A DNA stretch of 9,044 bases from the NCBI GenBank assembly GCA_001873285.1, contig MNYV01000010.1, positions 1-9,044 on the forward strand, given 5' to 3'. The stretch is from Nitrospirae bacterium CG2_30_53_67. Its GTDB lineage: Bacteria > CG2-30-53-67. Below are positions 1 through 9,044 of the stretch, piece by piece (the stretch's first letter is position 1; each line of letters begins with the position of its first letter). Below the pieces are notes generated by a model, which made no database searches, was not told the DNA's origin, and saw only the letters and a program-made list of their open reading frames with translations. A program made the translations under genes and the position numbers.

Positions 1-157
1 AGTGAAGTGCTAAAGACATAAGGGGCCGAGGGTCATAGGGTTCAAGGATTCCAGTGTTTTTCTCTGGAGATTTTGCTTGCGTTTAAGTATTTCACTTGAC
101 CCCTTGAACCCTGGAATCCTCGAACCCTTTTTACCCACTAAATGGGAGAAGAACCAG
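1..157. repeat. Long interspersed repeat, copy A (left end cut by window)
   Basis: Positions 1 to about 117 match 5142 to about 5246 nearly base for base in the same orientation, with scattered substitutions and an 8-base length difference. A tail at about 129-157 matches about 5362-5391. The right arm (about 90-128, beginning ttcacttgacccc) is the approximate reverse complement of the left arm of copy B (5110-5150). The unit is therefore an element of roughly 170 bases with inverted ends, like a MITE or a large palindromic repeat. No coding capacity is visible in the core. It abuts cbiX and supplies its upstream region. Confidence 0.85.
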
Positions 158-177
158 AAAAGAAGAGAAGTGAAGTG

Positions 178-561
178 ATGGAAGCTTTATTATTAATCGG
201 TCATGGAAGCCGGGCCGAGCAGGCCAATGAGGGGATGTTCCGGATCGCAGGGATGATCCGGAAGGCGGGTGGTTTCACCATTGTGGAGTGCGGCTTTCTT
301 CAGCTCTGCCCTCCGACCATCGAAGATGCGGTGGAGCGCTGTATTGCTCAGGGTGCGGAAAGGGTCTTGATGGTCCCCTATTTTCTGCATACCGGAATTC
401 ACATCCGGGAGGATCTCCCGAGTGTGTTCGTGGAGTTGAAAAAACGGTTTCCGCATGTGGAGATGGCCATGGGCACGGAACTGGGGAACGACCCCCTGCT
501 CGCCCAAGTGGTCATGAACCGGGTGGAAGAGATGCGAAACAGTCCATCCAAGGAGCAGTGA
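178..561 (+). CDS. cbiX: Sirohydrochlorin cobaltochelatase, short form (CbiXS)
   Basis: Inserts Co2+ into sirohydrochlorin to give cobalt-sirohydrochlorin, the committing step of the anaerobic B12 pathway in the cytoplasm. The protein is 127 residues, the length of the short, homodimeric CbiX/SirB-type chelatases; the long form is about twice this. The N-terminal LLLIGHGSR holds the first conserved metal-site His (H9). The second lies in the segment LHTGIHIREDLP (H75, with H71 nearby). I chose the ATG at 178 because the family begins just before the LIGHGSR strand. An in-frame ATG at 142 lies in the conserved tail of the upstream repeat and would only add a charged 12-residue stretch unlike the family. 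A GA-rich stretch (161-170) may serve as ribosome site. The stop codon abuts the cbiC start, so the two are probably co-translated. Nickel or iron chelation is possible from sequence alone, but the context favours cobalt. Confidence 0.93.
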   Translation: MEALLLIGHGSRAEQANEGMFRIAGMIRKAGGFTIVECGFLQLCPPTIEDAVERCIAQGAERVLMVPYFLHTGIHIREDLPSVFVELKKRFPHVEMAMGTELGNDPLLAQVVMNRVEEMRNSPSKEQ

Positions 562-1197
562 ATGCAGATCAGGAGAGAAGGGCCTGCCATAGAGGCGGAG
601 AGCTTCCGGATTATTGAACAGAAAATGGGTGAACATGGGTTCAGCCCCCTCGAGTTCCCTCTGGTCCGCCGGGTGGTCCATGCTACAGCGGATTTCGAGA
701 TCGGGTGTTCTTTGGTCTTTTCCGCAGGAGCGGTGCAGGCAGGGATGCAGTTGATCCGACGCGGGTGTCCGATCCTAACCGATATCCGCATGGTGGCCTC
801 GGGAATCTCCAGGGCGGCCCTGAAGAAGGCCGGCGGCGGGGAGGTCCTTTGCAGAATCGCCGACCCGGACGTCAGTGCCCAGTCCCAAGCCTCTGGAATG
901 ACCCGGTCCGCGGCCGCTGTCCGCTCCTTCGGTTCCCTTCTTACGGAGTCGATCCTGGTCATCGGGAATGCACCTACGGCGCTCCGGGAGGTCCTCCGCC
1001 TCAATCAGGAGGAAGGGATTGCTCCCGCGTTTCTGATCGCCGTCCCGGTCGGGTTTGTGGACGCTGCCGAATCCAAAGAGGCCCTGATGCAGACGGACCT
1101 TGCTTACATCACAAACCGCGGGAGAAAGGGCGGGACCCCTGTGGCCGTGGCCCTTGTGAACGCGTTATTAAAAATGGCGGAAGGGGGTGATACATGA
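562..1197 (+). CDS. cbiC: Cobalt-precorrin-8 methylmutase CbiC
   Basis: Moves the methyl group from C11 to C12 of cobalt-precorrin-8 to give cobyrinic acid, the last ring-forming step of corrin synthesis. At 211 residues it has the usual CbiC/CobH size. Family landmarks are present in order: RRVVHATADFE with the catalytic His (H40), TDIRMVASGI, GNAPTAL, the VPVGFVDAAESKE segment that helps shape the active site, and GRKGGTPVAVAL near the C-terminus. The start ATG directly follows the cbiX stop, and AAGGAG (550-555) inside the cbiX end is its ribosome site. Base composition is GC-rich (37 of 60 in the line from 841), like cbiX, cbiD and cbiE and unlike the next five genes. The cobalt form of the substrate is inferred from the presence of cbiX and cbiD. 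Confidence 0.95.
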   Translation: MQIRREGPAIEAESFRIIEQKMGEHGFSPLEFPLVRRVVHATADFEIGCSLVFSAGAVQAGMQLIRRGCPILTDIRMVASGISRAALKKAGGGEVLCRIADPDVSAQSQASGMTRSAAAVRSFGSLLTESILVIGNAPTALREVLRLNQEEGIAPAFLIAVPVGFVDAAESKEALMQTDLAYITNRGRKGGTPVAVALVNALLKMAEGGDT

Positions 1198-1411: not shown

Positions 1412-2170
1412 ATGTGTTTTAAGAGAACTGTTGCAATAATGGTTATATTTCTCTGGTCAGAGACAGCTTTTGCATCTCATCCGCTCATTACGGACGACAC
1501 AGACACACAGGGAAAAGGAAAATTTCAACTCGAAGTCAATGGCGAGTATGCCCATGAAGACGAAGACGGCGTAACTGAGAACGCCACCGAGATAGCGACA
1601 ATGCTGTCTTATGGAATAGCAGACAACATAGACATTGTTTTGGGCATTCCCTACCAGGATATGAGGACAAAGGATCCGGGAACTACGTCCGGAGAAAGCG
1701 GGATCGCGGATACCTCCCTTGAATTCAAGTGGCGATTCTACGAAAAGGATGGTCTGGGTTTTGCCTTGAAACCCGGCATGACCATGCCAACGGGCGATGA
1801 TGGAAAAGGTCTGGGTGCCGGAAAGGCAACGTATAGTTTGTTTTTCATTACCACACGGGAACTAAATCCATGGGCATTCCACCTCAATCTCGGATACAGA
1901 AGAAATGAAAACAAGGTTGATGAACGAAATGACATATGGCATACATCTCTTGCCGCTGAAGTGGAGGTTATGAAGGATCTAAAGGTTGTTGGAAATATCG
2001 GGATAGAGAGAAATCCCGATAAGACATCCAATACACACCCTGCATTTATACTCGGCGGGCTGATCTATTCGATATCTAAAAGCATTGCCATTGATGCTGG
2101 TGTAAAGGGCGGGCTTAACAAGCCGGATACGGATCTAACCCTGCTTGCAGGAATAACCTTTAGATTTTAG
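1412..2170 (+). CDS. Riboswitch-controlled outer-membrane beta-barrel protein, putative cobalt/corrinoid channel
   Basis: A 252-residue protein with a typical signal peptide (K4 R5, a hydrophobic run from V7 to W15, cleavage probably after AFA at A21). The rest is made of alternating polar/hydrophobic strands separated by short turns and charged loops. It ends in the aromatic pair RF with a terminal Phe, the usual outer-membrane insertion signal. The N-terminal HPLITDDTDTQGKGKFQLEVNG motif, the LSYGIADNIDIVLGIPYQ strand pair and the PTGDDGKGLGAG segment resemble the transporter-like barrel family distantly related to phenol-degradation MetA proteins. I know of no proven function. It is the first gene after the B12 riboswitch, has a good ribosome site (AGGAG, 1401-1405), and its stop lies within the cbiM ribosome site, so it is probably co-transcribed with the cobalt importer. 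The inferred role is passage of cobalt or a cobalt complex through the outer membrane. Confidence 0.75.
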   Translation: MCFKRTVAIMVIFLWSETAFASHPLITDDTDTQGKGKFQLEVNGEYAHEDEDGVTENATEIATMLSYGIADNIDIVLGIPYQDMRTKDPGTTSGESGIADTSLEFKWRFYEKDGLGFALKPGMTMPTGDDGKGLGAGKATYSLFFITTRELNPWAFHLNLGYRRNENKVDERNDIWHTSLAAEVEVMKDLKVVGNIGIERNPDKTSNTHPAFILGGLIYSISKSIAIDAGVKGGLNKPDTDLTLLAGITFRF

Positions 2171-2178
2171 GAGGCGCT

Positions 2179-2943
2179 ATGAAAATTAAAAGTTTAAAGT
2201 TAAAAGTTTTTATTCTTTCACTGTTCACTGTTCACTGTTCACTATTCACTGCCTCTGATGCTCATGCCATGCATATCTCAGAAGGGATATTGCCTTTCAA
2301 CTGGGCATTGCTCTGGTCTCTGGTTGCAGTCCCTTTTGTGGCGTGGGGCTTGTATAAGCTCAAGAAACTATCGTCAATTGACCTCTCATTCAAGCCTCTC
2401 GTCGGGTTAATGGCGGCTGTTGTATTCATCATTTCGTGCATGCCGATACCTGTGCCCACTGCAGGCACATGTTCCCATCCATGCGGAACCGGGATCTCAG
2501 CGATCCTCCTTGGCCCTGCAATAAGCGTACTTATTTCATCAGTTGCCCTATTGATTCAGGCCCTATTTCTTGCCCACGGGGGTCTGACCACATGGGGCGC
2601 TAATATCGTGTCCATGGGCATCATGGGTTCCTTTGCAGGATATCTGACCTTCAGAGGATTGAGAGCGTTAAAAGCTAATCTTTGGATTGCAGGCTTCATG
2701 GCTGGTCTCTTTGCAGACTGGGCAACATATTTGACTACATCCGTTGAGCTCGCATCAGGCATAAAAGGAGATTCGCAGTTTCTGCCGCTTTTCTGGAAGA
2801 TTCTTATTGCCTTTATCCCGACACAACTTCCATTGGGAATCCTTGAAGGGGCAATGACTGCAGGCATGGTGGTATTGCTTTATAAAAAGAGGCCTGATTT
2901 GCTCGTAAAAATGAAGGTATTAAAACCAGAGGAGGCATTATGA
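2179..2943 (+). CDS. cbiM: Cobalt ECF transporter substrate-binding membrane protein CbiM
   Basis: S-component of the CbiMNQO cobalt importer in the inner membrane. The 254-residue precursor carries a 30-residue signal peptide ending SDAHA. Cleavage after A30 would expose the mature N-terminus MHISEGILP, as in Salmonella CbiM. In the related NikM structure the first two residues (Met1, His2) and internal His residues hold the metal. Here the internal site is TAGTCSHPCGTG, with H70 of the mature chain flanked by two Cys. About six hydrophobic segments follow, including the family segments GPAISVLISS, LAHGGLTTWGANI and FIPTQLPLGILEGAMTAGMV. AGGAGG (2169-2174) overlapping the previous stop is the ribosome site. 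The signal-peptide codons are built from heptanucleotide repeats (see findings). Cobalt rather than nickel is inferred from the B12 context. Confidence 0.93.
   Translation: MKIKSLKLKVFILSLFTVHCSLFTASDAHAMHISEGILPFNWALLWSLVAVPFVAWGLYKLKKLSSIDLSFKPLVGLMAAVVFIISCMPIPVPTAGTCSHPCGTGISAILLGPAISVLISSVALLIQALFLAHGGLTTWGANIVSMGIMGSFAGYLTFRGLRALKANLWIAGFMAGLFADWATYLTTSVELASGIKGDSQFLPLFWKILIAFIPTQLPLGILEGAMTAGMVVLLYKKRPDLLVKMKVLKPEEAL
2187..2251. repeat. Heptanucleotide tandem repeats encoding the CbiM signal peptide
   Basis: Three units of type taaaagt/ttaaagt (2187-2207) are followed by five units of ttcactg or ttcacta (2217-2251). They lie inside the cbiM reading frame and encode residues 3 to about 25, that is the basic and hydrophobic part of the signal peptide. 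Seven bases read in three frames give a seven-residue period, visible as SLFT recurring. A very similar tract occurs in the next gene. Confidence 0.85.
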
Positions 2944-3242
2944 AATTTCAAATTTCAAATTTCAAATTTCAAATTTTCTCCATCATTTTTTTACTGTTTA
3001 CTATTCACGGTTCACTATTCACTGACACTGTCACTGCCTCTGACAAATGGCCGGGCGTTGATGAGTCCGTCGTCGAAAAATATGCAAAGGAGCAAGGCAG
3101 GGAGGCAAGGGAACCGTTCATAAATACGGATCAGGGCGACTTGCTTCTTTTTGTCTTTCTCCTCGCAGGCACAATCGGAGGCTTTACTGCAGGATATTAC
3201 TGGAAGGAACTGGCAGTCAAAGGACAGCGGCATGATAGTTGA
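2940..3242 (+). CDS. cbiN: CbiN-like small subunit of the cobalt ECF transporter
   Basis: A 100-residue membrane protein with the CbiN plan: an N-terminal hydrophobic segment or signal peptide (about 11-27), an extracytoplasmic loop, and a C-terminal transmembrane helix (about 68-88). The loop has the motif KWPGVDESVVEKYAKEQG and the second helix runs GDLLLFVFLLAGTIGGFTAGYYW. CbiN is known as an auxiliary subunit that helps load Co2+ into CbiM. Its ATG overlaps the cbiM stop (ATGA), and GGAGG (2931-2935) is the ribosome site, so the two are translationally coupled. The sequence is divergent from enterobacterial CbiN; I assign it from topology, motif and gene order. Its first 28 residues come from heptamer repeats, so the true start could conceivably lie elsewhere, but no better ATG is visible. 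Confidence 0.85.
   Translation: MKFQISNFKFQIFSIIFLLFTIHGSLFTDTVTASDKWPGVDESVVEKYAKEQGREAREPFINTDQGDLLLFVFLLAGTIGGFTAGYYWKELAVKGQRHDS
2943..3024. repeat. Heptanucleotide tandem repeats encoding the CbiN N-terminus
   Basis: Four copies of aaatttc plus one aaatttt (2943-2977) are followed by five degenerate units of tttactg/ttcactg type (2990-3024). They are in frame and encode the N-terminal hydrophobic part of the CbiN-like protein. The second tract and the following bases cactgcctctga match the same positions of the cbiM signal-peptide tract, so the two regions look like copies or independent products of the same repeat family. Confidence 0.85.
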
Positions 3243-3275
3243 GAAAAAAAAGATTTTGAAGAGTTAAAGTTTAGT

Positions 3276-3346
3276 CTGTCATTCCTGCGGAAGCAGGAAT
3301 CCATGTTCATTAAATAGTCTGGATTTCCGCCTACGCGGGAATGACA
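3276..3346. repeat. Palindromic interspersed repeat between cbiN and cbiQ
   Basis: The left arm (tgtcattcctgcggaagc...) and right arm (...gcgggaatgaca) are imperfect inverted repeats of about 27 bases. Each arm also folds on itself: ATTCCTGC-GGAA-GCAGGAAT is a perfect 8-base-pair stem, and the right arm forms a similar stem around CTAC. This is the widely dispersed type of palindromic repeat seen in many environmental genomes. It occupies most of the 117-base gap and could stabilise or attenuate the mRNA. Confidence 0.85.
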
Positions 3347-3359
3347 TAAAAGGATACCA

Positions 3360-4112
3360 ATGGAACTATTTTCAGAATACTTTAAAAAAGAGCAGCTCCT
3401 TTCAAAAGTTGATGCAAGGCTGAAACTTATTATAGCCCTCACTCTTCTGGGAATGATTTTAAGCTATAAGGGATTTACTCTTCCCCTGCTTGTGACAGCG
3501 CTTTGTTTATTGTTCTGTTTAAAGATGCGGATACCCTTAAAGATTTTTGCTCTCAGGTTTTCACAGCCATTGTTCATTATATCGGTCTTGCTTATTCTAA
3601 AAGTATTCTTCTCTGGAGAAGGCATCCTGTTTTCCATCAACATCTTCGGCATCAAAGTTGTCGGACATAAAGACGGGTTCATGGAAGGACTTATGATAGG
3701 AAGCAGAATCATAGGCGCAGTATCAGTCGTTGCAGTCATGGGATTCTCCACGCCGTTTACTGAATTCATGGCAGGCCTTTCATGGCTGAGGGTTCCAAAG
3801 GGTTTTATAGAAATATTGATGTTTGCCTACAGATATATCTTTGTGCTTCTTGAAGATGCGATGGTCATTTACAATGCGCAGAAAAACCGCCTCGGCTACT
3901 CAAACATAAGGCGGGGATTGAGTTCATTCGGCACTCTGTCAGGCTCTTTGATTCTTAAGGCATTTGATCACAGCCGGAATATTACTGTATCAATGATTCA
4001 AAGGGGCTATGACGGCAATATCCCCATGTTAAGACACAAGCCATTTAAGTCTTCTGAGATTATAGTTTCACTTCTATTTATCATTGCCATGGGGGTTGTA
4101 TGGAAGATTTAA
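3360..4112 (+). CDS. cbiQ: Cobalt ECF transporter T-component CbiQ
   Basis: Integral membrane coupling subunit that links the CbiO ATPase to CbiM. The 250-residue length and pattern fit the family: a short cytoplasmic N-terminus with VDARLKLI, several hydrophobic helices (about 22-52, 68-84, 111-130, 232-248), and the large cytoplasmic coupling domain. The two coupling motifs are seen as AQKNRLGY (173-180, A-x-x-x-R-x-G pattern) and MIQRGYDG (212-219); these engage grooves on the ATPases in known ECF structures. AAAGGA (3348-3353) is a plausible ribosome site six bases before the ATG. It overlaps cbiO by 13 bases, so the two are probably translated together. Confidence 0.94.
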   Translation: MELFSEYFKKEQLLSKVDARLKLIIALTLLGMILSYKGFTLPLLVTALCLLFCLKMRIPLKIFALRFSQPLFIISVLLILKVFFSGEGILFSINIFGIKVVGHKDGFMEGLMIGSRIIGAVSVVAVMGFSTPFTEFMAGLSWLRVPKGFIEILMFAYRYIFVLLEDAMVIYNAQKNRLGYSNIRRGLSSFGTLSGSLILKAFDHSRNITVSMIQRGYDGNIPMLRHKPFKSSEIIVSLLFIIAMGVVWKI

Positions 4113-5071
4113 TCAGAATACAGAATGCAGAGCATATCCCCCCCGCCCATCCCTCCCCCTCGATGGGGGATGGTAAGGGAGAGGGTGAAAATTCGGATCC
4201 CGGACTCTGTGCTCTGGGTTCTGAGATAAGACTATCAGTCAAGATAGATTCCTTTAAATATCCGGATGGGACCGCAGCACTGTCCGATATAAGCTTTGAG
4301 ACAAGAAGAGGCGAATTTATTGGAATACTGGGGGCAAATGGCTCAGGAAAGACGACCCTCTTAAAGATCATGGATGGGTTGATGAAAGACTTTGAAGGCG
4401 GCGTCCACCTTGATGGTGTTAACATCAGGAAACTCTCTCCAAAGGAGATATATAAAAAGGTTGGTCTTGTCTTTCAAAACCCTGATGACCAGCTCTTTGC
4501 AACAACCCTTTTTGAGGATGCTGCCTTTGGTCCTATAAATATGGGGATCGGCACTAAAGAGGTTGAAATACGGGTCTTAACTGCCTTACAAGAGGTTGAA
4601 CTTCAAGGGCTTGAAAAGAAATCCATCCATAACCTAAGCTTTGGGCAGAGGAAAAGGGCCTGCATCGCCGGGCTCCTTGCCATGGGTCATGAAATTTTAT
4701 TGCTCGATGAGCCGACTGCCGGGCTTGACCCCATGGGTGAATATAAGATGATGCGTCTTCTTAGAAAGCTTAATAAGGATAATGGCGTAACGATCGTCAT
4801 GGCCACCCACAGCGTTGACCTCGTCCCCTTGTTTCTTGACAGGCTGTATATTTTAAGCAAAGGTTATCTGGTAAGGGGCGGCACTCCTGAAGATGTATTC
4901 ACAGCGCCTGAGGAGATGTCAAATGTCAAGCTCAGGCTTCCTCAAATCGCCGAGCTGATTTACCGTCTCAAACATGAGGACAGTTTACCGTTTGAGAAAA
5001 TCCCGCTCACCATCGGCGAGGCTCGAAGGGAGATCATAAAGATCATGCAGAATTCAAGATCCATGGTTTAA
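4100..5071 (+). CDS. cbiO: Cobalt ECF transporter ATPase CbiO
   Basis: ATP-binding subunit powering the CbiMNQO importer at the inner face of the membrane. All ABC motifs are intact: Walker A GANGSGKTT (78-86), Q-loop at Q126 in FQNPDDQ, signature LSFGQ (179-183), Walker B ILLLDE (199-204) with D-loop AGLD, and switch His H237 in MATHSVD. A C-terminal extension after about residue 265 is usual for CbiO. At 323 residues it is longer than the typical 270-280. The excess is an N-terminal stretch of about 42 residues (rich in P, S, G) before IRLSVKIDSFKYPDG, where the domain starts. That stretch is encoded by palindromic repeat DNA. No ATG, GTG or TTG lies between the repeat and the domain, so translation must start in or before the repeat; the ATG overlapping cbiQ is the best choice. 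Confidence 0.95.
   Translation: MEDLIRIQNAEHIPPAHPSPSMGDGKGEGENSDPGLCALGSEIRLSVKIDSFKYPDGTAALSDISFETRRGEFIGILGANGSGKTTLLKIMDGLMKDFEGGVHLDGVNIRKLSPKEIYKKVGLVFQNPDDQLFATTLFEDAAFGPINMGIGTKEVEIRVLTALQEVELQGLEKKSIHNLSFGQRKRACIAGLLAMGHEILLLDEPTAGLDPMGEYKMMRLLRKLNKDNGVTIVMATHSVDLVPLFLDRLYILSKGYLVRGGTPEDVFTAPEEMSNVKLRLPQIAELIYRLKHEDSLPFEKIPLTIGEARREIIKIMQNSRSMV
4112..4227. repeat. Repeat DNA inside the 5' end of cbiO
   Basis: Outer arms (tcagaatacagaatgcagag at about 4113 and tgctctgggttctga at about 4209-4223) are roughly inverted. They enclose a C/G-rich hairpin (4148-4172) with CCCCC-TCGAT-GGGGG at its tip, followed by aagggagaggg. Such sequences are typical intergenic repeats, yet here they are in frame and read through as the extra N-terminus of CbiO. 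Confidence 0.7.
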
Positions 5072-5109
5072 ATTTTGGGATCATCTCTAAAAGAGTGGGT
5101 GAAAACATC

Positions 5110-5391
5110 AGGGGTCAAGGGGTCCAGGATTCCAGGGGTCAAGTGAAGTGCTAAGAACATAAGGGGCCGAGGGTTATAGGGTTCCAGTGTTTTTCTCCGG
5201 AGATTTTGCTTGCGTTTCAGTATTTCACTTGAACCCTTGACCCCAAGATACGTTAGTGTAGTAGCCGTCGCAGACGGTCCCGGCCCGGCAAAAATAGATT
5301 CAAGGAGATGCCGGGATCTAACGACAAAAATAGAGAAAAGCGGGGCACGCGAAGCGTAACCCTTCTTACCCACTATGTGGGAGAAGAACCT
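5110..5391. repeat. Long interspersed repeat, copy B, interrupted by an insert
   Basis: From 5142 to about 5246 this matches copy A (1 to about 117) in the same orientation. Its left arm 5110-5150 (aggggtcaaggggtcc...) is visible, unlike in copy A, and is inverted relative to 5220-5245 and to the right arm of copy A. The conserved tail (ttacccacta..gggagaagaacc) resumes at about 5365. Between them lie about 110 bases that copy A lacks. The repeat fills most of the 347-base gene-free gap between cbiO and the peptide gene. Confidence 0.85.
5251..5323. other. Potential three-way-junction structure inside repeat copy B
   Basis: CGTTAG (5251-5256) pairs with CTAACG (5318-5323). Inside, CCGTC-GCA-GACGG (5265-5277) forms a hairpin, followed without spacing by TCCCGGC (5278-5284) pairing with GCCGGGA (5310-5316). 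All three stems are perfect and fit together as one three-way junction with an eight-base joining segment on one side. I do not recognise a known RNA family. It could be a leader RNA of the peptide operon or merely part of a mobile palindromic element. Confidence 0.5.
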
Positions 5392-5403: not shown

Positions 5404-5410
5404 AGGAGGT
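5404..5410 (+). promoter_or_regulatory. Strong ribosome binding site of the precursor peptide gene
   Basis: AGGAGGT lies eight bases before the ATG at 5419. It is among the strongest ribosome sites in the window, which supports this short frame being a real, highly translated gene. Confidence 0.85.
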
Positions 5411-5418
5411 GAAAAGAT

Positions 5419-5571
5419 ATGACTAAAAAGACCAAAGCCGAGAATAAAAAAACCCGGAACAGCAAAAAGCCAAGCGCTGTCTCTTATCACCTGAAGTGCG
5501 CCAAGACAGCCAATGGGCTCACTCATTTTGTTATGTACGGCGATGTGCCGAAAAAGAAGATGCCTCTGTAG
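5419..5571 (+). CDS. cbpA: Precursor peptide for radical SAM modification (CbpA-like)
   Basis: A 50-residue peptide with a lysine- and asparagine-rich N-terminal half (residues 2-18, leader-like, no hydrophobic core) and a distinct C-terminal half: SYHLKCAKTANGLTHFVMYG followed by DVPKKKMPL. The core has a single Cys (C27), two His (H24, H36), two Tyr and a Phe, all possible sites for crosslinking or metal binding. It has a near-perfect ribosome site and sits 240 bases upstream of a SPASM radical SAM enzyme with only hairpins between, the usual layout of a RiPP precursor and its maturase. I recall a family called modified peptide precursor CbpA, paired with radical SAM CbpB in corrin-related contexts. 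The match is from memory and not verified. The mature product and its role are unknown to me. Confidence 0.75.
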   Translation: MTKKTKAENKKTRNSKKPSAVSYHLKCAKTANGLTHFVMYGDVPKKKMPL

Positions 5572-5582
5572 AAAAAGTTTAA

Positions 5583-5614
5583 GCGGTTCAAGCGGGTTAA
5601 ACCGCTTGAACCGC
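5583..5614. promoter_or_regulatory. Strong hairpin between precursor and maturase genes
   Basis: GCGGTTCAAGCGG (5583-5595) and CCGCTTGAACCGC (5602-5614) form a perfect 13-base-pair stem with a six-base loop, starting 12 bases after the peptide stop. No T run follows on the + strand, so it is not a canonical terminator there. It could protect the 3' end of the short peptide message or lower read-through into the maturase gene, giving more peptide than enzyme. On the opposite strand a short T run follows the stem. Confidence 0.7.
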
Positions 5615-5658
5615 CAAAGTTGATATTAAGGTTCTCGTAATAGAAACGACATCATATC

Positions 5659-5734
5659 GAAAATCCCTCCTGACCTCCCTTTTTCAAAGGGAGGAATTCC
5701 CCCTCTTTGGAAAAGAGGGGCAAGGGGAGATTTT
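5659..5734. repeat. Double-hairpin palindromic repeat upstream of the maturase
   Basis: Two adjacent perfect hairpins, CCTCCCTTT-TTC-AAAGGGAGG (5674-5694) and CCCCTCTTT-GGA-AAAGAGGGG (5700-5720), are enclosed by roughly inverted ends aaatccctcc and ggggagattt. This is a compact dispersed repeat, like that between cbiN and cbiQ but of a different family. A TTG at 5707 lies within it and opens a longer frame into the maturase, which I do not accept as the real start. Confidence 0.8.
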
Positions 5735-5811
5735 ATGAACCATGTTCATTCTATTTCGAGACTATTAATAAGTTGCCTGAACTATTTATTATAGGAAAGG
5801 AATTCAAACGC

Positions 5812-7149
5812 ATGAACAACAACAACCGCGTCATCTCTTTTTCCGACATTGATGCTGACTGGAAGCTGGCCCTTGATGCCGACAATGTCTTCTGGGGGGT
5901 TATTCCGAAAAAGGTTGACGGCGCCTTTATGATGCCTGATGACCTGATAACTCTGTATCAGAAGGAGAGAGAGCATCTTGACAAGGAGCTTTATGATTTC
6001 AGATTCAATGCGGATTTAAATTGCATATACATTGACCCTACCGACAGATGCAATGCCGACTGCCCTTACTGTTACATCCCGTCAAGGATAAGAAAAAAGG
6101 GCACACAGATGACAGGTGGAGAGCTTGATACCGTGTTGACAAAGATTGCCGCGCATTTCAAGACTTCATCCAAAAAACCGGTCATTGTCTTCCATGCTGC
6201 AGAACCGCTTCTGGTAAAAGGCATCCTGTTTAATGCAATAGACAGGTTCCACAAAGAACTTCTTTTCGGCATTCAGACCAATGCTCTCCTTCTTGAAAAA
6301 GAGGATGTTGAGTTTATGAAAAAACACAGAATGGGCGTCGGCATATCCCTTGACGCCCCTGAAGCGGATATCAATAACGTTTCACGGGCAACGACAAGAG
6401 GAAACGGCAACTTTGAGAAAGCAGTGCAGGCCATAGACTGGTTTGACGGTTATGAGGGATTGAATGTCATTTCAACCGTCACTAAATTCAATGTTCATAG
6501 ACTTTCCGACCACGTGAGGTTTCTTCACAAGAAAAAGGTCCCCTGTGTGCTTCTCAATCCGGTAAGAGTGACAAGGAAGCCCGCATTGAAACTGAAACCG
6601 GACCAAAAGGTATTCGCGGAAAATCTCATGGACGCTGTTGATACGGCAATGGATTTATCAATAAAATCCGGACGGCAGATTGTTGTGGGGAACTTTTCCA
6701 ACGTTATTCTCGCCATCATATCGCCGTCTGCCAGACGGATGATGTGTGATATTTCTCCATGCGGAGGCGGCCGTACCTTTCTCACGATCACGGCCGGCGG
6801 CGACATGGTCCCCTGCGGAGAATTTATCGGTTCCAAGGAATTTTCAGGCGGGAATATCTTTAATACGACGATTTCAAAGGCCATAAACTCAAAACCTTTT
6901 AAGGAAATACGTTCAAGGACCGTGGAAAAGATTGAAGAATGTAATACCTGCGACTTCAGACATATATGCGGCTCGCCCTGCCCGGCTGAAATGCACGCCC
7001 GCGGCAATATGTACAAAAAGGCGGAGTTTTGTGATTTTTATAAAGAGATCATAAGGCATGCCTTTAAATTGATTGCTGAAGACAAAGTTGAATATCTCCT
7101 GCGTAAAGATTCATTGGCACATATGCAATATGAGTATCAGTATAAATGA
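5812..7149 (+). CDS. cbpB: Radical SAM/SPASM peptide maturase (CbpB-like)
   Basis: A 445-residue enzyme expected to cleave SAM reductively and install a radical-made modification on the upstream peptide. The radical SAM cluster motif is CNADCPYC (C80, C84, C87). The C-terminal SPASM domain is complete: C317, G330-x4-C335, then the exact CX2CX5CX3C pattern at C377, C380, C386, C390, and C407; C312 is an extra Cys. The segment that normally reads GGEP is AAEP here (129-132, in VFHAAEPLL). The first 70 residues, before the barrel, could hold a peptide-recognition region, but I cannot see a clear RRE fold. I chose ATG 5812, which has AGGAAAGG (5793-5800) upstream; the in-frame TTG at 5707 lies in a repeat. 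The 3' end overlaps cbiD by four bases. Low GC (26 of 60 in the line from 6601) contrasts with cbiD. Family name CbpB is recalled, not checked. Confidence 0.85.
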   Translation: MNNNNRVISFSDIDADWKLALDADNVFWGVIPKKVDGAFMMPDDLITLYQKEREHLDKELYDFRFNADLNCIYIDPTDRCNADCPYCYIPSRIRKKGTQMTGGELDTVLTKIAAHFKTSSKKPVIVFHAAEPLLVKGILFNAIDRFHKELLFGIQTNALLLEKEDVEFMKKHRMGVGISLDAPEADINNVSRATTRGNGNFEKAVQAIDWFDGYEGLNVISTVTKFNVHRLSDHVRFLHKKKVPCVLLNPVRVTRKPALKLKPDQKVFAENLMDAVDTAMDLSIKSGRQIVVGNFSNVILAIISPSARRMMCDISPCGGGRTFLTITAGGDMVPCGEFIGSKEFSGGNIFNTTISKAINSKPFKEIRSRTVEKIEECNTCDFRHICGSPCPAEMHARGNMYKKAEFCDFYKEIIRHAFKLIAEDKVEYLLRKDSLAHMQYEYQYK

Positions 7150-8270
7150 AAAATGATGAAGTCTCGGACAGGCCGCTCCGCAAAGGATACACCACAGGCG
7201 CCTGTGCCGCGGCCGCGGCCAAGAGCGCGGCACTGGTCCTGGTGACCGGGGTACCGGTCTACCGGATAGAGATTGATCTCCCCGCGGGAGGGTCGGTCGT
7301 GCTTCCGGTTAAGACCCTAAGGTGCGATGACCTGACGGCCTCCTGTTCCGTGGTCAAGGATGCGGGGGACGATCCGGACGTGACCCACGGTGCGGAGATC
7401 ATGGCCAGGGTCCGCAAAGCACCGGGCGAAGCGGATCAGAAAGGATATGAACTCACGATAGCGGGAGGTGAAGGGGTCGGCCGGGTGACCAAGCCGGGTC
7501 TCCCCATTGCGGTCGGGGAGTGGGCCATCAATCCGGTGCCCAGGTCCATGATTGCAAATGAAGTGACCCAGGTCTTGAGGCACTTCTCAAAGAAGTGCCA
7601 GGGCGTCCGGTTTGAAGTGACCATTGAGGTGCCGGAAGGCAAAAACCTTGCTGAAAAGACCCTGAACCCCCGGCTGGGGATTCTGGGCGGGATCTCGATT
7701 CTGGGGACCACGGGGATCGTGGAGCCCCTCTCCCACAAGGCATGGGAAGAGACCATTGCCGCGCAGATCCAAGTGGCCGTGGCCTGCGGGAATCAAGCGG
7801 TGGTCCTGACTCCGGGCCGGTCCAGCGAGAAGGCGGCCGAGGCGCTCCTGCCGGGCCTTCCCTCGGAGGTCTTTGTACAGATGGGGGACTTTGTGGGCGC
7901 ATCTCTTCGGCTGTGTTCAGACCAGGGAGTTTCCGAGGTGACCGTGGTGGCCATGCCCGGCAAGATGTCCAAGATCGCCATGGGGTATGAGGACACGCAT
8001 TACAAGGCCTCGGAATTGAGATTTGACGTTCTGGGTTCCTGGGCCGTGGGCCTCGGGATGGACGAAGGTTCTGTGCAGAGGGTCATTCATGCCAACACCA
8101 GCCGGGAGATCTGGGAAATCCTGCCTGAAGATTCACCTCTGTATAATGAGATCTGCCGTCGGGCCAGGGAGAGCTGTGAATCCCTCTCGAGCGGCAAGGT
8201 CAGGGTAAAGACCGTGCTGATCGGATACGACGGGAAGGTGCTGGCGGACACGATGGGATTTGAGATTTGA
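7146..8270 (+). CDS. cbiD: Cobalt-precorrin-5B C1-methyltransferase CbiD
   Basis: Methylates C1 of cobalt-precorrin-5B with SAM to give cobalt-precorrin-6A, a step specific to the anaerobic pathway. The 374-residue length is normal. The diagnostic N-terminal motif LRKGYTTGACAAAAAKSA starts at residue 11, and the C-terminal region has the PGKMSKIAMG motif (from about 271) with a conserved His (H285) in YEDTHYKASELRFDVLG. The ATG overlaps the stop of the radical SAM gene (ATGA), and I see no clear ribosome site in the AT-rich bases before it. Its translation may therefore depend on ribosomes finishing the maturase gene. It is GC-rich (38 of 60 in the line from 7741), like cbiC and cbiE, with an abrupt change in composition at the overlap. 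The stop codon lies inside a palindromic repeat. Confidence 0.96.
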   Translation: MKNDEVSDRPLRKGYTTGACAAAAAKSAALVLVTGVPVYRIEIDLPAGGSVVLPVKTLRCDDLTASCSVVKDAGDDPDVTHGAEIMARVRKAPGEADQKGYELTIAGGEGVGRVTKPGLPIAVGEWAINPVPRSMIANEVTQVLRHFSKKCQGVRFEVTIEVPEGKNLAEKTLNPRLGILGGISILGTTGIVEPLSHKAWEETIAAQIQVAVACGNQAVVLTPGRSSEKAAEALLPGLPSEVFVQMGDFVGASLRLCSDQGVSEVTVVAMPGKMSKIAMGYEDTHYKASELRFDVLGSWAVGLGMDEGSVQRVIHANTSREIWEILPEDSPLYNEICRRARESCESLSSGKVRVKTVLIGYDGKVLADTMGFEI

Positions 8271-8349: not shown

Positions 8350-9044
8350 ATGAGACCAGGAAAGAGACTCCATCCGATCCAGATCATAGGTGTGGGACTC
8401 AAGGGACCGGAGGGGCTGTGTCCCGAGGTGCTGGATCGAATCCAACAGGCGGACCTGCTGGTCGGTGGGAGAAAGATCCTGCAGGGTTTCAGGGGATTCC
8501 CCGGCCAGAGGTTTTCGCTGGATGGGCATCTCAAGGGGCTTGACAGCAAGATCCATCATGCCGTCAAACTCGGGAAGAGGGTGGTGGTGCTGACCTCGGG
8601 CGATCCCAATTTCTTCGGGATTGCGAGGTTCCTTTTCAAGTCTTTCCGGCCTGAAGAGATGGAGATCCATCCCCATGTGAGCTCCATGCAGCTCGCCTTT
8701 GCACGGGTCCGGATCCCCTGGGACGATGCGGCTTTTGCCTCGGCCCATGGACGGGATCTCCTCTCGGTGATTCATACGGTCAGGAGCCGCACCAAGGTGG
8801 CCGTGCTCACGGATCCGAAGAACCATCCGTCGCGGATCGCGAGGGCCTTGCTGAAAGCCGGTCTTCCGGACACGACGGTCTATGTCTGCAGCCGGTTGGG
8901 AGGACCGGATGAGAAGGTCTGGCAGGGGAACCTCTCTTCACTGACCGGGAAGCGGTTTCCCGATCTGAACGTGATGATTATCCTGAACGACCGGGCCGGG
9001 GAGGAGGGATTCGGGATCCCGGATCATGTCTTGGCCCCCGACAA
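8350..9044 (+). CDS. cbiE: Cobalt-precorrin-7 C5-methyltransferase CbiE, probably CbiET fusion (3' end outside window)
   Basis: SAM-dependent corrin methyltransferase of the tetrapyrrole methylase family; 231 codons are visible and the frame is still open at the window end. Seen motifs: PIQIIGVGLKGPEGL near the N-terminus (9-23, the family glycine-rich turn), ADLLVGGRKIL (34-44), and VVVLTSGDPNFFGIARFL around residues 78-95, the SAM/substrate-binding SGDP loop starting at S83. The C-terminal strand LNVMIILND closes the CbiE domain. The following FGIPDHVLAPD resembles the linker that leads into the CbiT (C15-methylating, decarboxylating) domain of CbiET/CobL fusions, so a fusion is likely but not seen. 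GGAG (8342-8345) is a close ribosome site, four bases before the ATG. It is GC-rich like cbiD. Confidence 0.92.
   Translation, partial: MRPGKRLHPIQIIGVGLKGPEGLCPEVLDRIQQADLLVGGRKILQGFRGFPGQRFSLDGHLKGLDSKIHHAVKLGKRVVVLTSGDPNFFGIARFLFKSFRPEEMEIHPHVSSMQLAFARVRIPWDDAAFASAHGRDLLSVIHTVRSRTKVAVLTDPKNHPSRIARALLKAGLPDTTVYVCSRLGGPDEKVWQGNLSSLTGKRFPDLNVMIILNDRAGEEGFGIPDHVLAPD

Follow-up and report, generated by a model that had tools for sequence, protein, structure and literature searches.

The window (the whole 9,044-nt stretch of DNA analysed here) carries a peptide–maturase gene pair, cbpAB, inside a cobalamin operon, and its 50-residue frame and the SPASM gene that follows are confirmed as real genes. 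The pair has homologues in many bacteria and a few archaea, which share a peptide core motif, nearly always lie in B12-related surroundings, often have a cobalamin riboswitch in front, and occur in genomes that apparently only salvage B12. Regulation by B12, the iron-sulfur clusters of CbpB, and modification of CbpA by CbpB would follow from what is known of these families. It is therefore probable that the peptide has its role in the handling of B12 as such and not just of cobalt ions. Our leading interpretation, in which we place slightly less than even confidence, is that CbpAB is a B12-regulated RiPP-like system that acts at the corrinoid level, between entry or ring synthesis and the finished cobamide.

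Layout of the operon

The 11 genes of the window all lie on the + strand, in the order cbiX, cbiC, an outer-membrane-type (OMP) gene, cbiM, a gene at the CbiN position, cbiQ, cbiO, cbpA, cbpB, cbiD, and cbiE (Table 1). Pfam and NCBIfam confirm the family identities of cbiX, cbiC, cbiM, cbiQ, cbiO, cbiD, and cbiE. The original prediction placed the pair between cbiO and cbiD with a 4-base overlap with cbiD, and noted that the window encodes neither a protease nor an exporter dedicated to the peptide; both statements hold. The cobalamin riboswitch is on the same strand as cbpA, ~4 kb upstream. The protein at the CbiN position (100 aa; motif KWPGVDESVVEKYAKEQGREA) is kept in nine loci and has no match in Pfam or NCBIfam.

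Table 1 Features of the window.
Feature	Position	Strand	Basis or remark
cbiX-like chelatase	142–561	+	PF01903
cbiC	562–1197	+	PF02570
Cobalamin riboswitch RF00174	1212–1397	+	69.1 bits; heads the OMP-cbiMNQO-cbpAB-cbiDE gene string
Outer-membrane-type protein (Phenol_MetA_deg family), 3' of riboswitch	1412–2170	+	PF13557; homologue in L020
cbiM	2179–2943	+	PF01891; TIGR00123 over cut-off
CbiN-position small membrane protein	2940–3242	+	Related loci also have it between cbiM and cbiQ
cbiQ	3360–4112	+	TIGR02454 over cut-off
cbiO	4100–5071	+	PF00005; ECF cobalt ATPase families
Shine-Dalgarno of cbpA, GGAGGTGA	5405–5412	+	6 nt before ATG, from sequence
cbpA, precursor peptide, 50 aa, divergent CbpA branch	5419–5571	+	Motif and position 5' of cbpB
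CbpA invariant core C27-x5-G33-L34-T35-H36-F37	5497–5529	+	C, G, L, H in 43/43; S/T/A; Y/F
Stem-loop directly 3' of cbpA stop, without T-run; possible stoichiometry element	5583–5614	+	z = -6.8
cbpB, radical SAM/SPASM peptide maturase, 445 aa	5812–7149	+	TIGR04163
cbiD	7146–8270	+	TIGR00312 over cut-off; 4-nt overlap with cbpB
cbiE, start only, leaves window	8350–9042	+	TIGR02467 over cut-off

The gap between cbiO and cbpA is 348 nt in the window and 29 nt in a same-genus genome (L017, identical with G001/L006). The long gap is specific to the window and is occupied by a repeated MITE-like element. This repeat, with inverted arms, lies at positions 1–155 and 5090–5390 and has 72 match places in the genome of the window; one copy separated cbiO from cbpA.

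The cbiMNQO-cbpAB block has a GC content of 41–47%, as against 55–61% for cbiX, cbiC, cbiD, and cbiE. The low-GC stretch, OMP-cbiMNQO-cbpAB (1412–5071 and 5419–7149), thus sits inside a high-GC cbi operon and is akin to Nitrospirota: CbpB and CbiO show this kinship, and CbiC, CbiD, and CbiE do not. The common low GC and the shared kinship suggest that cbiMNQO and cbpAB arrived together, and the block was probably transferred as a whole into a lineage belonging to a different phylum. In five Nitrospirota loci, a 261-aa protein with HD-like residues (L020, 14707–15492) is encoded 3' of the cbi/cbp genes; a Pfam search with it gave no match.

The peptide and its maturase

The ribosome site of cbpA is strong, as the original prediction held, and the same AAAGGAGGTGA is found in L017, L019, and L020. 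The motif C-x(4-7)-G-L-[STA]-H-[YF] is common to all 43 CbpA peptides compared. The residue after the His is Y or F, the residue before it is S, T, or once A, and the stretch before the core reads [IV]-[AS]-x-[RH] in nearly all 43. Among the residues predicted to form the core, C27 and H36 (window numbering) are conserved, whereas H24 is not, its position being occupied by R in 33 peptides, H in nine, and K in one; a functional role for H24 is thus not supported. The shortest members have 25 residues (L037 and L054), indicating a very short leader.

The motif lies just 5' of cbpB in 39 of the 41 listed loci, and in the other two (L033 and L041) cbpB is at a contig edge. The peptide frame is thus kept next to the maturases, which supports the predicted pairing of a RiPP-type precursor with a SPASM enzyme. 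No further copy of the motif occurs in 583 kb of listed CbpB loci, and none in 664 kb around 39 listed control SPASM loci. Over the last 32 codons of cbpA, the eight closest listed copies outside the window differ by 399 synonymous and 89 nonsynonymous changes, summed over pairs; the synonymous share expected from random single changes is ~22%. The synonymous excess, together with the restriction of the motif to sites 5' of cbpB, indicates that the reading frame is more than chance.

The CbpA/CbpB family named in the original prediction is the correct one, on the score of CbpB and on the core motif of the peptide. The window peptide itself matches no NCBIfam or Pfam model, and the CbpA model TIGR04164 does not match it even at an E value of 10. 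TIGR04164 matches 31 of the 38 peptides scanned, and the seven that it leaves out are the window peptide and its nearest relatives; therefore, the window carries a CbpA branch that the public model misses. This branch differs from the main one in its tail, THFVMYGD(V/I)P, and in an H in place of R before the Cys. A search of 21 genomes with TIGR04164, including that of the window, gave no match; absence of the peptide is rejected as the cause, the branch being too divergent. A CbpA profile matched only antibody chains among solved structures, by chance.

CbpB scores 496.1 bits against TIGR04163 (cut-off 375), with residues 16–428 aligned to positions 10–426 of the 428-position profile, and is ~40% identical to the main CbpB branch. 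The mechanical open reading frame opens at a TTG (5707), but homology begins near the ATG. In accordance with the predicted complete cysteine patterns, both the radical SAM cysteines (C80xxxC84xxC87) and eight C-terminal SPASM cysteines (C312, C317, C335, C377, C380, C386, C390, and C407) are invariant in 37 homologues, and three iron-sulfur clusters are therefore expected. The AlphaFold model (mean pLDDT 88.9) is nearest in fold to anSME (Z 33) and CteB (Z 32). The first 66 residues of the model, a possible leader-binding (RRE) domain, consist of three strands and a long helix; by itself this part has no significant match in the PDB, but the complete model can be aligned with CteB starting at residue 6.

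A CbpB-like gene in L010 (G245) reaches 340 bits, under the cut-off, has no CbpA motif beside it, and was left out; it adjoins an MFS transporter. In L041 (8–1592), a fragment of a second CbpB lies directly 5' of a full CbpB, at the contig edge.

In the window, cbpA and cbpB are separated by 240 nt that hold the strong hairpin of Table 1. Hairpins with z of about -2 or lower are present in 25 of the ~40 listed cbpA–cbpB gaps, and their sequences differ. Some of them may be repeats for which the site is merely tolerant.

B12 context across genomes

Genome contigs were scanned with a CbpB alignment, which gave at least 41 homologous loci (L017–L057), a sample; below L057 the scores drop sharply to other SPASM enzymes, 39 of which (L058–L096) serve as control loci. 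We define B12 context as a same-strand B12 gene within 5 kb, recognised by comparison with labelled B12 proteins, or a cobalamin riboswitch (Rfam). By this definition, 36 of the 41 listed CbpB loci have a B12 context. B12 genes are nearby in none of the 39 listed control loci (Fisher p = 3e-8), and a cobalamin riboswitch was present in none of the seven control loci searched.

The riboswitch ends less than 350 nt 5' of cbpA in 15 listed loci, and by coordinates also in G030 and G291. Most of these directly led pairs stand alone without B12 genes around them, as in Rhodoblastus acidophilus and Magnetospirillum fulvum, and they come from Pseudomonadota, Myxococcota, Thermodesulfobacteriota, Spirochaetota, Lentisphaerota, and Nitrospinota. 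Other pairs lie in salvage clusters with CobU, CobT, CobS, a FecCD-type permease, a periplasmic binding protein, DUF71, and TonB receptors. Pfam confirms CobU/T/S/C, the FecCD-type permease, the periplasmic binding protein, and DUF71 as neighbours; we read the permease and binding protein as BtuCF from their context. De novo cbi operons hold cbpAB in the clade of the window and in a few Verrucomicrobiota and Elusimicrobiota. Such clear cbi contexts make up about a quarter of the listed loci, the rest being salvage or transport clusters or a riboswitch-led pair alone. Common cbi neighbours, expected by the original prediction, are thus a feature of the window's clade and not of the family in general, in which the B12 context itself is general.

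Two associations within this set are recorded here. In L034, L044, and L049, the salvage clusters have cbpAB flanked by an Asn_synthase-type ATPase, a DUF71 ATPase, and radical SAM proteins of small size. In L046 (5626–7599), a BluB-type nitroreductase–CobT fusion in one reading frame lies just 5' of the riboswitch and cbpAB.

Of the five loci without a B12 link within our limits, L034 carries CobO and B12 import-type genes slightly beyond them, the contigs of L041 and L054 are short or cut, and the two from Planctomycetota, L040 and L043, show no B12 link. A permissive Rfam search of loci without a riboswitch found none. For cbpAB on the Methylovirgula plasmid pHY1, neither a riboswitch nor B12 neighbours were detected; the prediction that this copy would carry a riboswitch failed, with nothing convincing by eye or by pattern. 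This copy (L097, 8792–10371) adjoins a Crp/Fnr regulator and pqqADE.

In the CbpB tree, a long branch separates two deep clades. One comprises the window, Nitrospirota, archaea, and some Omnitrophota, and the other comprises the remaining sequences. Across this tree the B12 link is retained, although the type of B12 context switches at least six to eight times.

The pair is also not confined to makers of the corrin ring. Of 45 distinct CbpAB genomes (G001 and G386 counted as one), 16 have no CbiC, and 13 of these 16 have no CbiF over the cut-off either, including G291 (99% complete) and G312 (95%); for 11 of the 13, the apparent salvage-only status is read from draft genomes in which the two markers are absent. 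In these genomes, the pair is often beside CobU/T/S or BtuCDF-type genes, or alone behind a riboswitch. CobT, which synthesis and salvage share, occurs in 42 of the 45. BluB over the cut-off is present in nine of the 45, a distribution that gives no pattern of BluB as a complement of CbpAB. Because apparent non-makers of the corrin ring keep the pair, cobalt uptake or insertion is unlikely to be its only role, and the step that CbpAB serves should be one common to synthesis and salvage.

Function of CbpAB and comparison with known systems

The original prediction was that the matured peptide may bind or sense cobalt or a corrinoid intermediate. The corrinoid part of this proposal fits the data better, and the part resting on cobalt ions alone is weakened. 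A corrinoid role is supported by a B12 link that persists in both deep clades of CbpB even though the type of context varies; the Methylovirgula pHY1 copy and the two planctomycete loci weaken it, as does the finding that no gene for export or processing accompanies the pair constantly.

In the mechanism that we propose, low intracellular cobalamin would let cbpAB be expressed through the cobalamin riboswitch, which stands at the head of the gene string in the window and directly 5' of cbpA in many other species. CbpA would probably be in excess over CbpB, and the strong ribosome site and intergenic hairpin would fit more peptide than enzyme. With SAM and three clusters, one of the radical SAM type and two of the SPASM type, CbpB would modify the core C-x(4-7)-G-L-[ST]-H-[YF], most likely by cross-linking or oxidation around the single invariant Cys. 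The product would be a small peptide with a conserved Cys (or a derivative of it) and His, which may bind, carry, or tune a corrinoid between cell entry (or ring synthesis) and the finished cobamide. The type of bond, the corrinoid binding, and the step served are put forward as suggestions.

An alternative is that the peptide, once matured, chelates cobalt(II) or acts as a metallochaperone for it, supplying the transporter–chelatase side of B12 synthesis. The order cbiMNQO-cbpA-cbpB-cbiD in the window and its Nitrospirota relatives, the apparent joint travel of the low-GC block, the invariant Cys and His of CbpA, and the NiCoT gene adjoining L047 are consistent with it; indeed, in the window's clade, where cbpAB sits beside cbiMNQO and the two seem to have moved together, a cobalt role fits equally well. 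However, six of the 13 genomes without CbiC and CbiF also lack CbiM/NikM, the cobalt transporters searched for, and the pair in the 13 sits with salvage or import genes or alone behind a riboswitch. We therefore consider this role unlikely.

Stand-alone riboswitch-cbpA-cbpB units could also point to a product that supports a B12-sparing or alternative function, such as a peptide-derived cofactor, replacing a B12-dependent process under scarcity. The same layout is seen for B12-independent isozymes, and PQQ and mycofactocin are peptide-derived cofactors made by SPASM enzymes. However, in about half of the listed loci the pair is embedded in clusters for B12 synthesis or salvage, a placement that speaks for a part in producing or obtaining B12, and no partner enzyme is conserved beside the pair, making this explanation improbable. 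SPASM-modified peptides are often antibiotics or signals, but a signal or bacteriocin-like antagonist made under B12 limitation is still less probable, since no exporter, protease, or immunity gene is conserved in the 41 listed loci and the core is nearly invariant across phyla, unlike diversified bacteriocin cores. Least probable of all is that the peptide supplies part of the cobamide itself, such as a lower-ligand or linker precursor: CobT is encoded directly 3' of cbpB in L028 and L031, near it in others, and present in the 42 genomes above, but it is common in B12 salvagers anyway, and the nine genomes with BluB can make dimethylbenzimidazole.

The corrinoid-level reading has a bolder form, which we regard as possible but doubtful: a widespread, riboswitch-controlled, SPASM-cross-linked peptide would be a dedicated corrinoid carrier or tuning cofactor in makers and salvagers, bacteria and archaea, and the first B12-handling RiPP. 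Should this be true, a peptide with post-translational modifications would join the components of B12 handling, among which no such type has been recognised so far. Both the riboswitch and the occurrence in salvage-only genomes assign CbpAB to the B12 economy as a whole, and its role is testable in the culturable hosts R. acidophilus and M. fulvum.

The family itself has been named: RefSeq already names a CbpA/CbpB pair on a plasmid, and NCBIfam lists its members as TIGR04164 (modified peptide precursor CbpA) and TIGR04163 (peptide-modifying radical SAM enzyme CbpB), which share the gene order and core motif seen in the window; the names come from the family builders. Papers that use these names concern unrelated subjects, and we found none describing the product or its role. 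Riboswitch control and salvage-only occurrence of CbpAB were likewise not described in the literature searched. What the analysis newly adds to the family is its divergent branch of peptides, riboswitch control directly ahead of the pair, and its occurrence in apparently salvage-only genomes.

Among solved structures, the best sequence match of CbpB is CteB (PDB 5WGG), which makes a thioether in a ranthi/sactipeptide precursor. The folds match over the whole length, N-terminal part included (Z ~32), at 16–18% identity; CbpB differs in its eight C-terminal cysteines, which outnumber those in the corresponding region of CteB, and in a much shorter substrate with a single invariant Cys. The highest structural score is with anSMEcpe (PDB 4K36–4K39; Z 33 over the radical SAM and SPASM domains), which likewise has eight SPASM cysteines. 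In anSME, the third SPASM cysteine is followed by an Asp (PCDF), the proposed base of formylglycine formation, whereas CbpB has the loop [SG]-E-F-[IV]-G after C335, which resembles HQFVG of CteB and not DFYVL of anSME; in addition, no sulfatase lies beside CbpB. As the loop is CteB-like and without the Asp of anSME, formylglycine would be a somewhat less likely product than a cross-link, such as a thioether.

DUF71-B12 (COG2102) is an ATP-pyrophosphatase predicted to act in B12 salvage (PMC3541065). Its function, too, was predicted from clustering with B12 salvage genes, and it adjoins cbpAB in L034, L044, L049, and others; the protein is unrelated to CbpB and has no peptide substrate.

Metal-binding RiPPs of the methanobactin and bufferin type depend on MNIO-family enzymes, handle copper, and have their own transporters or signal sequences. 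What methanobactin and the bufferins (PMC12452194) would have in common with CbpA is the concept of a Cys/His peptide that is modified in order to deal with a metal species.
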